A program made the translations under genes and the position numbers. From Allomeiothermus silvanus DSM 9946 (lineage in GTDB: Bacteria; Deinococcota; Deinococci; Deinococcales; Thermaceae), in the NCBI RefSeq assembly GCF_000092125.1, contig NC_014212.1:1818001-1882000 (forward strand): 64,000 nt of DNA, in the 5' to 3' direction. The notes under the pieces were generated by a model, which made no database searches, had not been told where the DNA came from, and saw only the letters and a program-made list of their open reading frames with translations. Below, one piece after another: positions 32,172-39,366 of the stretch (the first letter of the stretch is position 1; every line of letters starts with the position of its first letter).

Positions 32172-32885
32172 CTAGGGCTGTTTAGGCGCCGGGGTGCTTT
32201 CTCCACCCTGGGAGGGGGCGCTAGTTTTGCCCGCCAGCGCGTTCTCGATGCGCTCCTTCCACTTTTCGTAAGGCACATAGCCGTCGTCGAAGAGCTGGCC
32301 GTTGACGAAGAAAGTAGGGGTGCCACGCAGTGCGAGCTGGGTGGTGAGATCGCGGTCAGCTAGGACCCCGGCGCGTTTGGAACCTGAACGCAGGCACTCG
32401 GCAAAGGGCCCGGCAGGTATCCCCAGTTGGCTGGCCAAGTCAATGAAGAACTGGTCGAGCGCGGCCCCGCTCAACCCGCCCCATAACCGCTGGGCGCGGA
32501 ACAGTACCTCGTGGTAGTCCCTGTAGCGGTTAGCATCGGCGGCACAAGCGGCGGCTTCCCCCGCCCGAATCACGTTATCCTGGCCGGTGAAAGGGAAGTC
32601 GCGGAAGATGTAGCGCACCTTGCCGGTGTCTACGTAATCGCGGAAGATCTCCGGCACGTTGCGTAGGGCGTGGTCGGCGCAATGGGGGCAGAGGTAGTTG
32701 GAGAAATCCACGATGGTGACCTTGGCGCTAGGGGAACCGAAGACGAAGCGGGCTCCTGCGGCAGGGTCAGCGGCAGTAGGTTTAGGGCGCAAAAACACAA
32801 AGAGTACTACCGCGAGAACCACAGCAATTACCGCAACGATCAAAAACAGCCCGCGCTGGGGGGAGGGGTTAGCCTTCTGCATCAC
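32172..32885 (-). CDS. Membrane-anchored DsbA-family thiol-disulfide oxidoreductase
   Basis: A 237-residue protein with one N-terminal transmembrane helix (about residues 13-32) and an extracytoplasmic thioredoxin fold with a helical insertion. The active site is C66-P-H-C69 (NYLCPHCADH), the same CPHC dipeptide pair as in DsbA. The cis-Pro loop is in LRGTPTFFVNG. The C-terminus is a Ser/Pro-rich tail. It would form or isomerise disulfides in exported proteins, or donate electrons for their repair. It is a single-gene unit between clpX and speE. Confidence 0.9.
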   Translation of the reverse strand: MMQKANPSPQRGLFLIVAVIAVVLAVVLFVFLRPKPTAADPAAGARFVFGSPSAKVTIVDFSNYLCPHCADHALRNVPEIFRDYVDTGKVRYIFRDFPFTGQDNVIRAGEAAACAADANRYRDYHEVLFRAQRLWGGLSGAALDQFFIDLASQLGIPAGPFAECLRSGSKRAGVLADRDLTTQLALRGTPTFFVNGQLFDDGYVPYEKWKERIENALAGKTSAPSQGGESTPAPKQP

Positions 32886-32936: not shown

Positions 32937-33926
<990 letters not shown>

Positions 33927-33948: not shown

Positions 33949-34383
33949 TTAGGCCTGTTGCCCATCCTTCGGATTGTGCCGCTTGATCTCGTGCTCGGTG
34001 GGCCGCCAATACTCAAACGAAGACTCTTCACGGGCTCCAAAGGCTCGAGCTAGCCCCCGCAAGACGCTCTCAGGGTTCACTCCGGATTGGTAGAAATACA
34101 AATCCAACGCCGCCGAGGCGTCATCCTCGGGCCAAGTGTGGATCATTACTGCTGCCACCGGGCTTACGATGGCTGCGGAGAGCCCTTGGGGGTAGAACTT
34201 GTACACTACCCCTTGCACCGAGGCAGTAGGGGCGCCCAGCTTTACCACTGCGTCTTTAAGCGCGGTCTCGACTAAGCGGGGATTTTCCAGCACCTCGAGG
34301 TTGCAGCCGTAGATCTCGGCCACCCAGCGGCCACCAGGTACGCCTTGGGGGCTATTTTGCTCGGGGACACCTTCGCTTGCCAC
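33949..34383 (-). CDS. S-adenosylmethionine decarboxylase homologue without the pyruvoyl-forming serine
   Basis: A 144-residue protein of the bacterial SpeD family: VAEIYGCN, FYPQGLSAAIV and IHTWPE align without gaps to the normal FSPQGVSGVVV and IHTWPE blocks. In active SpeD the proenzyme cleaves between Glu and Ser (ESHLTIHTWPE) and the Ser becomes the pyruvoyl cofactor. Here those positions are Val76-Ala77, and the proton-donor Cys (T. maritima Cys83) is replaced by Tyr98; the processing His is kept as His82. Self-processing should therefore be impossible. It may be a prozyme-like partner of a second, active SpeD, or have another function. It is next to speE and 7 nt from a membrane-protein gene. 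Confidence 0.85.
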   Translation of the reverse strand: MASEGVPEQNSPQGVPGGRWVAEIYGCNLEVLENPRLVETALKDAVVKLGAPTASVQGVVYKFYPQGLSAAIVSPVAAVMIHTWPEDDASAALDLYFYQSGVNPESVLRGLARAFGAREESSFEYWRPTEHEIKRHNPKDGQQA

Positions 34384-34389
34384 GAGCCG

Positions 34390-34848
34390 TTATCTTACCA
34401 CAGGGCGAGCAGAAGCGGAGCCTGACCATAACAGCCCTATCAGGACGAGGCTACACGCTGCCATCAGGATGCTTACCCCATCGAGTGGGGTAGTGTTCCC
34501 CCATACCCATCCCAGGGGAGTGAAGAAAGGGAGCCCGACGCTACGGGTGAGTATGAAAAGGACCAGAATGGCCCCATTAAGCCATAGCCCGACCCGGTTG
34601 GCCCGCCGCACCGCCGGGCTTTCCTCGTCTAGCAGACCCAAGTCGATCAGGATCAGAAAGAAGGCGAAGGCAGCTTGCAACGCCATCCCAAGCAGGAAAA
34701 ACTGGGCATAAAAGGTCTCCGCCGAGAATGGGTCAAAGGAGCCGAAAGCTCCGCAGAGCCCGCCGCCTAGCGGGGTCTTGGCCCAGCCCAGAAGTTGCAG
34801 GAGAAAAGGCAAGAAGGAAAGCCCGACAACCCAGCGCCGCGCCTGCAT
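34390..34848 (-). CDS. Hypothetical integral membrane protein, four helices
   Basis: A protein of about 152 residues with four hydrophobic segments (roughly 5-22, 49-72, 86-104 and 125-145) and a polar loop rich in Asp/Glu/Arg in the middle. I recognise no family. I start it at the ATG at 34848 (MQARRWVVG) because positive residues directly before the first helix fit a normal inside-N orientation. It lies 6 nt upstream of the speD homologue, so it may be co-transcribed with it and speE. Confidence 0.65.
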   Translation of the reverse strand: MQARRWVVGLSFLPFLLQLLGWAKTPLGGGLCGAFGSFDPFSAETFYAQFFLLGMALQAAFAFFLILIDLGLLDEESPAVRRANRVGLWLNGAILVLFILTRSVGLPFFTPLGWVWGNTTPLDGVSILMAACSLVLIGLLWSGSASARPVVR

Positions 34849-34854
34849 GGCCCT

Positions 34855-35082
34855 ATGGTGCAAGATATCCTAGCCCCGCTCAAGGGACTAAGTTACCGGA
34901 GGTATGCGCAGGGCCTGAAACTCTCGCTGAAGAAGCTCGCTGACGGCGTAGCACAACTCGGGGTGGTTCGCCCGCAGCATTGGCAACCGCGCCAGACCCA
35001 GTACCACGGACTAGCAGATGGATCTTGGCTGCCGGCTAGTTGGCATCCCGCCCGAAGTATTCCCCTAATTGGTCTCGAGTGA
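34855..35082 (+). CDS. Possible small ORF antisense to the gap between ftsK and the membrane protein
   Basis: An open frame of 75 codons fills the 187-nt gap and overlaps the last 47 nt of ftsK on the other strand. The product is basic at first ([23 protein letters not shown]) and Trp/His-rich later. There is no good ribosome site and no family match. It may be chance; it is listed because nothing else explains the gap. Confidence 0.25.
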
Positions 35083-38000: not shown

Positions 38001-38495
38001 TTACTTGAGGGCCTTGACCATCTTGGCGACTTCATCGGTTACGTCCAACGAGTCATCCCCGTAGAGCACCAACCCGCTACTGGAGGCTACCCGCCGGTCC
38101 AAGATGATCCCAAAGCCCTGAGCCCGGGCGAACTTGGCGATTTCTGCGTCGATCTGCTTGGTAATCGGCTCAGTGGCTTTGGCCTGACGCTCGGCCCACT
38201 TCTGGCTAGCCTGCTGATAGGCATTGCGCAGGGTCTGGAAGTCTTGCTGCTCTTTAGCGGTAGCGGTCCCGGCCTGGATCTTCGGCTGGAGAGTCTTGAG
38301 CTGGTCTTCCAGGGGCTTTAGCTCTTTCTGGGCCTGCTCGATGACTGCTTGAATCTCTTTGTAACGGGGGTGAGCCTGCACCACCTTTTGCGAATCCATA
38401 AACCCTACCTTGAGTACCGGTTGATTCTGCGCTATGAGGGGCGAGGCTGCGAAAAAACCAAGCAAAACGGGGAAGAAACGCATGAGTCCTTTCAT
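38001..38495 (-). CDS. OmpH/Skp-family periplasmic chaperone, copy 1
   Basis: A protein of about 164 residues with a signal peptide (MKGLMRFFPVLLGFFAASPLIAQ) and a Skp-like body. The start of the mature part (VLKVGFMDSQKVVQAHPRYKEIQ) is the trimerisation strand, the centre is a coiled-coil tentacle (QAQKELKPLEDQLKTLQPK), and the C-terminal strand is GFGIILDRRVASSSGLVLYG. Skp family proteins carry unfolded outer-membrane proteins through the periplasm. It is a tandem paralogue of the next gene upstream (38630-39118), and the two share long stretches of identical DNA. No bamA or lpxD is adjacent. Confidence 0.88.
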   Translation of the reverse strand: MKGLMRFFPVLLGFFAASPLIAQNQPVLKVGFMDSQKVVQAHPRYKEIQAVIEQAQKELKPLEDQLKTLQPKIQAGTATAKEQQDFQTLRNAYQQASQKWAERQAKATEPITKQIDAEIAKFARAQGFGIILDRRVASSSGLVLYGDDSLDVTDEVAKMVKALK

Positions 38496-38573
38496 GCTTG
38501 GCACTTTAGTCGGGGCCGCTTAAGGGTCGGTGAGAGTTCGGCTTGCTCGGGGGGCAGCCCGGCCTAAGCGCAG

Positions 38574-38629: not shown

Positions 38630-39118
38630 TTATTTGAGTGCGTTGATGATCTCGTCGGTCACGTCCAACGAGTCATCCCCGTAGAGCACCAGCCCACTAC
38701 TAGAGGCTACCCGCCGGTCCAAGATGATCCCAAAGCCCTGAGCCCGGGCGAACTTGTCGATTTGCACATCGATCTCTTTGGTGATCGGCTCGAGAGCCTT
38801 GGCTCGGCGCTCGGCCCACTTCTGACTAGCCTGCTGATAGGCATTGCGCAGGGTCTGGAAGTCTTGCTGCTCTTTAGCGGTAGCGGTCCCGGCCTGGATT
38901 TTTTGCTGTAGCGGGGTGAGTTGGTCGGTGATCGGTTTGAGCTCCTTGTTGGCTTGGTCGAGCACGGCCTGGACTTCCTTGTAGCGAGGATGGGCCTGGA
39001 TGACCTTCTCCGAATCGAGGAAGCCAACCCGCAGCACTGGGCGGTTTTGGGCGACCAAGGGGGTCGCTGCGATCATGAAGCCGAGAAGAACGGGGATAAA
39101 CCACGCCAAACGTTTCAT
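38630..39118 (-). CDS. OmpH/Skp-family periplasmic chaperone, copy 2
   Basis: A paralogue of the 38001-38495 gene with the same plan: signal peptide (MKRLAWFIPVLLGFMIAATPLVAQ), Skp start VLRVGFLDSEKVIQAHPRYKEVQ, coiled coil, and the same GFGIILDRRVASSSGLVLYG end. ATG 39118 is preferred to the GTG at 39127: TATACA lies 9 nt before it, in keeping with the leaderless pattern. The C-terminal third and a central ~80-nt block are nearly identical in DNA to copy 1, whereas the signal peptide and the tentacle differ. Confidence 0.88.
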   Translation of the reverse strand: MKRLAWFIPVLLGFMIAATPLVAQNRPVLRVGFLDSEKVIQAHPRYKEVQAVLDQANKELKPITDQLTPLQQKIQAGTATAKEQQDFQTLRNAYQQASQKWAERRAKALEPITKEIDVQIDKFARAQGFGIILDRRVASSSGLVLYGDDSLDVTDEIINALK

Positions 39119-39366
39119 GGGAGACACTGTATATGTCCCGGCTTAGCGAACTGTGAGAGCATGCCCCCGGGCTGGTTTGCCTATCCTGAAGCGGCACCCA
39201 AATGAGGATGCATGAAGCGTTTTTGAAAGCTTCGTGAGGGTGACGCGAAACCAAAATAAATGGCCTTGCTAGGGAGGCTCGGGTAGGCTAAGCCTCGGTA
39301 GCCGGGTGCTGGGGAGTATGGACCCAGCAATGGTTGGCTTTACCAAGAGATAAGGAGGAATGAATC

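Follow-up and report, generated by a model that had tools for sequence, protein, structure and literature searches.

A SpeD homologue without the pyruvoyl-forming serine is conserved beside speE in Thermaceae and may be a non-catalytic partner of the aminopropyltransferase

The window analysed here, a stretch of 64,000 nucleotides from Allomeiothermus silvanus DSM 9946, encodes a homologue of the SAM decarboxylase SpeD in which the residues needed to form the pyruvoyl cofactor have been replaced. This dead SpeD is a conserved pseudoenzyme under strong purifying selection, and its gene lies directly upstream of that of the aminopropyltransferase SpeE (Table 1). Our preferred reading, to which we give close to an even chance, is that it acts as a separate, non-catalytic partner or subunit of SpeE built on the SpeD fold.

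Table 1. Features of the pseudo-SpeD locus (positions in the window)
Feature	Position	Strand	Remarks
Pseudo-SpeD, AdoMet_dc fold, 144 aa, without pyruvoyl-forming serine	33949..34383	(-)	GTG start, 0 internal stops
Val76-Ala77 codons, site of the Glu62-Ser63 cleavage pair	34153..34158	(-)	Aligned to Thermotoga maritima SpeD
HTWPE codons (residues 82-86), kept motif including the processing His68 equivalent	34126..34140	(-)	
Tyr98 codon, site of catalytic Cys83	34090..34092	(-)	Y in 97%, F in 2% of dead rows
speE, aminopropyltransferase (Spermine_synth and tetramerisation domain)	32937..33881	(-)	Start 67 bp past the pseudo-speD stop

The protein is of the HTWPE type, like the class 1b SpeD of T. 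maritima (1TLU), with which it shares 34% identity. The T. maritima enzyme is active and carries Glu62, Ser63 and Cys83, whereas the alignment places Val76-Ala77 at the Glu62-Ser63 pair of the window protein, Ala78 at His64 and Tyr98 at Cys83. The entire HTWPE motif is retained, including the processing histidine (His82, equivalent to His68). The preliminary description had read these residues, their coordinates and the intact frame correctly. Its statement that the alignment is gap-free holds at the cleavage site only, since a one-residue insertion between HTWPE and Tyr98 is needed to match the latter with Cys83. In the SpeD family, the pyruvoyl cofactor is known to arise from a serine (PMC10407285); the window protein, with Val76-Ala77 and Tyr98 at the sites of Glu62-Ser63 and Cys83, is unable to form this cofactor and therefore cannot be a standard SAM decarboxylase.

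Scored against the AdoMet_dc profile PF02675, the protein reaches 74.8 bits (curated cut-off 25) and so belongs to the superfamily. Against TIGR03330, the NCBIfam equivalog for functional AdoMetDC, it reaches 54.2 bits and stays below the cut-off of 75.65. Among the marks of a functional class 1b AdoMetDC, it therefore lacks the Glu-Ser pair, Cys83 and a score above this cut-off. A class 1b SpeD fold is predicted by an AlphaFold2 model (pLDDT 80.6), which matches 1TLU with a Z score of 17.0 and the T. maritima S63A structure 1TMI with 16.9; this laboratory mutant mimics the natural substitution of the pseudo-SpeD.

The dead SpeD is present in 57 of the 111 genomes of the order. The window's family, represented by 50 genomes, accounts for 48 of them and two sister families for the other nine. 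All 57 proteins were read and the Glu-Ser pair is absent from each in the same way, which rules out a sequencing error or a frameshift as the cause of the serine loss. To compare residues, 48 dead rows were set against 43 active HTWPE-type SpeDs. The positions kept in 100% of the dead rows include E11, C15, F49, P51, G53, S55, H68, T69, W70, P71, E72 and D79. The replacements are uniform as well, with E62V and S63A/G in 100% of rows together with F81Y, T82F and C83Y/F (Table 1); the preliminary description had proposed to check conservation of the alanine in relatives, and the site indeed holds only Ala or Gly. From this pattern of kept and replaced residues, the loss is confined to pyruvoyl chemistry and its immediate surroundings. 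The dN/dS of the dead SpeD between related genomes is mostly 0.02-0.1, with a maximum of 0.23 in one low-divergence pair. Its identity averages 0.746 across 25 genomes, the corresponding values being 0.744 for the intact SpeD (see below) and 0.727 for SpeE. Because of these low dN/dS values, conservation in 57 genomes and the near-invariant substitutes, decay of the dead SpeD is ruled out, in line with what had been argued earlier from its place beside speE.

When 84,980 species were scanned with two short motifs of the dead SpeD family, this family turned up in Deinococcota only; the motifs are narrow, so that members may have been missed. Close copies in viruses, phages or plasmids were not found. 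A Ser-less SpeD homologue, DDHKHITIHTWPE, was observed on large viral contigs (L176, 4007-4354, and L178). It overlaps a downstream 231-aa ORF that is methyltransferase-like by eye; one tree places the homologue next to the dead clade of Thermaceae, though on a long branch. A divergent SpeD-like protein, ARRGHVLLHAYV (L088, 3879-4307), with Gly at the serine site and without a Cys83 equivalent, is encoded in genus g13, which by its content is Oceanithermus. SpeD-like proteins with no speE nearby were also seen in Deinococcaceae (L059, L084, L085, L093, L094, L097, L098 and L099); in several of them the pyruvoyl serine is replaced by Ala or Thr and the Cys83 equivalent is missing, so that more dead or repurposed SpeDs occur there.

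In all 57 genomes carrying the dead speD, the next gene, directly downstream and on the same strand, is speE. Most genomes of Thermus and the sister families have a gap of 2-12 bp between the two; it is longer in Meiothermus-like ones, including the window. The two genes are separate reading frames, each with its own stop and start, and do not form a one-chain fusion; a sigma-70-like site between pseudo-speD and speE was at chance level. Native-type speE is found in exactly the same 57 genomes as the dead SpeD. Two otherwise complete genomes of the window's family, G027 and G041, have no speE, no dead SpeD and no intact SpeD, and are therefore apparently without this route to polyamines. Another genome, G003, has kept an intact-type SpeD but lacks both the dead SpeD and the native-type speE. 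Genus g13 (L089, L090 and L091) carries a different speE (41-43% identity) beside a class 1a-like SpeD, and the dead SpeD, the usual intact SpeD and the native speE are all absent. This pattern of presence and absence indicates that the dead gene follows speE. Distance matrices gave a partial r of 0.49 for dead SpeD with speE versus 0.20 for dead with intact SpeD, a weak signal confounded by linkage.

Other genes around the locus were noted. A small membrane-protein-like ORF without a Pfam family (34390-34863, minus strand) ends 6 bp before pseudo-speD. Genomes of the Meiothermus/Calidithermus type have comparable ORFs near the locus; the Thermus loci read do not. Downstream of speE, a DsbA/Thioredoxin_4-like protein (32172-32885, minus strand) is encoded, and is found near the locus in most Thermaceae read. 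Further away, two similar neighbouring minus-strand ORFs of 167 and 165 aa (38001-38504 and 38630-39127), OmpH/Skp-like by eye, appear to be a tandem duplication.

A search of the genome for a second speD with an intact serine, as the preliminary description had suggested, found one in the source genome (3.72 Mb, three contigs) at C1:1430595-1430930. Its AESH, HTFPE and FSCK motifs are all intact and it is not beside speE. Of the 57 genomes with the dead form, 56 also have an intact-type SpeD, and the one without it (G064) is 65% complete; the intact SpeD adjoins speE in none of the genomes read. This SpeD, encoded elsewhere in the genome, must supply decarboxylated SAM (dcSAM). Two SpeD trees were built, of 91 and 82 rows and about 111 columns. 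In these, all dead SpeDs group in a single clade (100/99) within the HTWPE half, which also contains SpeDs of T. maritima, Bacillota and Chloroflexota, with no firmly placed nearest neighbour there. The intact SpeDs of the same genomes fall in the other half (100/99), with the Deinococcaceae SpeD-like proteins. This position rules out a recent duplication of the genome's own intact SpeD, and the dead gene is most readily understood as the first gene of an old speD-speE operon in altered form.

The motif scan also brought in a SpeD from Dehalococcoidia (Chloroflexota) with Gly-Ala at the cleavage site, encoded directly upstream of speE. In its order, all 16 HTWPE-type SpeDs have speE immediately downstream. 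Each carries Gly at the E62 position and His, Tyr or Gln at that of C83; S63A is found in 10 and Ser63 is kept in the other 6. They keep the equivalents of F49, S55, H68, W70, E72 and D79. With a motif pattern search the damaged form was detected in 15 of 294 genomes of the class, all 15 in that order. A second SpeD occurs in 14 of the 16 genomes, and the 13 that were read all have an intact Glu-Ser pair and none is beside speE; G619 and G623, for which no completeness figure is given, show the damaged SpeD only. In related Chloroflexota the operonic SpeD beside speE is intact, and a second SpeD, if any, is mostly of an HTFVE type without Pro. A Pro is missing in arginine decarboxylases of the SpeD family (PMC10407285), and we infer that it is the same one. 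Comparison of the two groups indicates that catalytic loss of the operonic SpeD goes with the presence of a second SpeD resembling a genuine AdoMetDC. A single origin of both dead groups was not rejected in an AU test (p 0.135). One shared origin is nevertheless disfavoured, as the Dehalococcoidia pseudo-SpeDs group with active Chloroflexota SpeDs (100/95) and part of their clade keeps Ser63, which makes a separate serine loss the simpler reading. On these alignments and trees, the Dehalococcoidia dead SpeD is apparently of separate origin.

Animal spermine synthase, with its dead SpeD-like N-terminal domain, provides the closest functional precedent, which is absent from the preliminary description. 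In the human enzyme this AdoMetDC-like domain comes from a bacterial AdoMetDC-aminopropyltransferase fusion and has lost AdoMetDC function, yet is still essential for the dimer (PMC12803844). Like the pseudo-SpeD, it is a dead class 1b fold tied to an aminopropyltransferase: the pseudo-SpeD model matches it (3C6K) with a Z score of 10.0, above unrelated folds, a match of fold only, with no sequence similarity detected between the two. We propose the pseudo-SpeD as a split equivalent because human spermine synthase has kept its dead domain and the predicted fold matches it. The Ser-less SpeD fold and the linkage to an aminopropyltransferase are common to both, the one-chain fusion is not: the human domain is fused and essential for the dimer, whereas the pseudo-SpeD is a separate protein whose SpeE is active alone in E. 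coli.

The path to such a partner may have started from an ancestral active speD-speE operon of the type still seen in Chloroflexota. Once a second SpeD supplied dcSAM, the operonic SpeD could have lost catalysis, while a structural or regulatory tie to SpeE would have retained the protein. The dead SpeD might pair through its beta-sheet face, as the N-terminal domain of animal spermine synthase does, and so stabilise, tune or regulate SpeE. Its possible targets are the SpeE oligomer, the acceptor range in long-chain polyamine synthesis, or the response to SAM, dcSAM or MTA that would be bound in the retained F-S-HTWPE pocket of the dead SpeD. The identity of the two gene sets (57 and 57 genomes), the unbroken adjacency, the co-loss in genus g13 and the Dehalococcoidia parallel argue for partnership with SpeE. 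Against it stand the crystal structures of Thermus SpeE alone, the tetramerisation domain that SpeE itself carries, and the production of spermidine and spermine/thermospermine by Thermus SpeE alone in E. coli (PMC11107197). Basal SpeE activity thus does not depend on the dead SpeD, which would more probably tune or regulate SpeE than serve as its scaffold. Its operon position could also mean co-expression only.

The preliminary description rightly took the protein for a Ser-less SpeD homologue; its prozyme of another SpeD is just one of two partner models. The dead SpeD would then heterodimerise with the genome's intact SpeD to activate, stabilise or regulate it, and co-expression with speE would match dcSAM supply to demand. 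This is coherent with the intact-type SpeD found in nearly every genome with the dead form, with the beta-sheet faces by which class 1b SpeDs pair (PMC5201418) and with the presence of active-site residues among the most conserved of the dead SpeD. There are precedents too. The trypanosomatid AdoMetDC prozyme (5TVM; PMC5201418) is likewise a dead SpeD-family protein beside an active one, and the pseudo-SpeD model matches chain B of the heterodimer with a Z score of 8.3. The dead half of the Victivallis vadensis SpeD-defunct SpeDC fusion (PMC10407285) is, like the pseudo-SpeD, a bacterial SpeD domain retained after loss of self-cleavage. However, the prozyme belongs to class 2 and is a paralogue of its own active partner, whereas the pseudo-SpeD, linked to speE, is of another subfamily than the intact SpeD, the two standing in separate halves of the SpeD tree (100/99); the Victivallis domain is fused to an active SpeD and has no tie to SpeE. 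Linkage, co-loss and distribution moreover track speE, and G003 has an intact-type SpeD without the dead SpeD or native-type speE. We therefore regard a prozyme-like role as unlikely, if still the main competitor.

The complete conservation of the F49, S55, H68, W70, E72 and D79 equivalents, with pyruvoyl chemistry alone lost, and the keeping of the same pocket residues in the separate Dehalococcoidia case, would also suit a pseudoenzyme working alone as a homodimer, with SAM, dcSAM, MTA or a polyamine as its pocket ligand, that signals the state of the pathway to another target. Yet Tyr98 and its bulky neighbours may fill the pocket, no effector domain is fused, and a sensor role alone does not explain the invariable pairing with speE, so that we consider this improbable. 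The near-invariance of V76, A77 and Y96-F97-Y98 is as expected of a site rebuilt for a new, pyruvate-independent activity, but a new set of polar catalytic residues is not apparent, and the source genome already encodes a speA arginine decarboxylase scoring above its cut-off. The known neofunctionalised SpeDs, the pyruvoyl arginine and ornithine decarboxylases SpeDA and SpeDC (PMC10407285, PMC9992855), resemble the pseudo-SpeD as SpeD homologues without AdoMetDC activity, often in two-SpeD genomes, but they keep and rely on the pyruvoyl serine. A new activity is accordingly very improbable, and a neofunctional pyruvoyl decarboxylase is ruled out by the missing serine. Finally, redundancy with a second SpeD would permit just the catalytic loss seen here in a functionless leftover of the old operon. 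This idea is scarcely credible, being contradicted by the strength of purifying selection, by a mean identity as high as that of the intact SpeD and SpeE, and by frames that remain open in 57 genomes.

Thermus serves as the thermophile polyamine model, with 16 kinds reported (PMC9654539), and Thermus parvatiensis (L206) carries the dead form. A metabolic model (PMC4021367) includes SpeD1 of T. thermophilus HB27 (TTC0473) among its enzymes; the locus number adjoins that of speE (TTC0472). By synteny, SpeD1 is the pseudoenzyme, TTC1093 being the intact SpeD of the species, and one of the two Thermus 'SpeD' proteins is thus listed as a pathway enzyme. Annotation pipelines also label such pseudo-SpeDs as working decarboxylases, the Dehalococcoidia form scoring 124 bits against the TIGR03330 cut-off of 75.65. 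Dead SpeDs are already known from the trypanosomatid prozyme and the Victivallis fusion, but in neither case as a separate protein tied to SpeE. No description of a bacterial pseudo-SpeD/SpeE pair was found in the literature searched, which is not proof that none exists. If the dead SpeD does partner SpeE, it would be a split form of the step that gave animal spermine synthase. It is possible, if rather doubtful, that in at least two bacterial cases, Deinococcota and Dehalococcoidia, the operonic SpeD has become a dedicated non-catalytic aminopropyltransferase subunit, the split counterpart of animal spermine synthase, controlling which polyamines form. These two apparently separate systems, in one of which some members have retained the serine, offer a place to watch an enzyme turn into a non-catalytic subunit.
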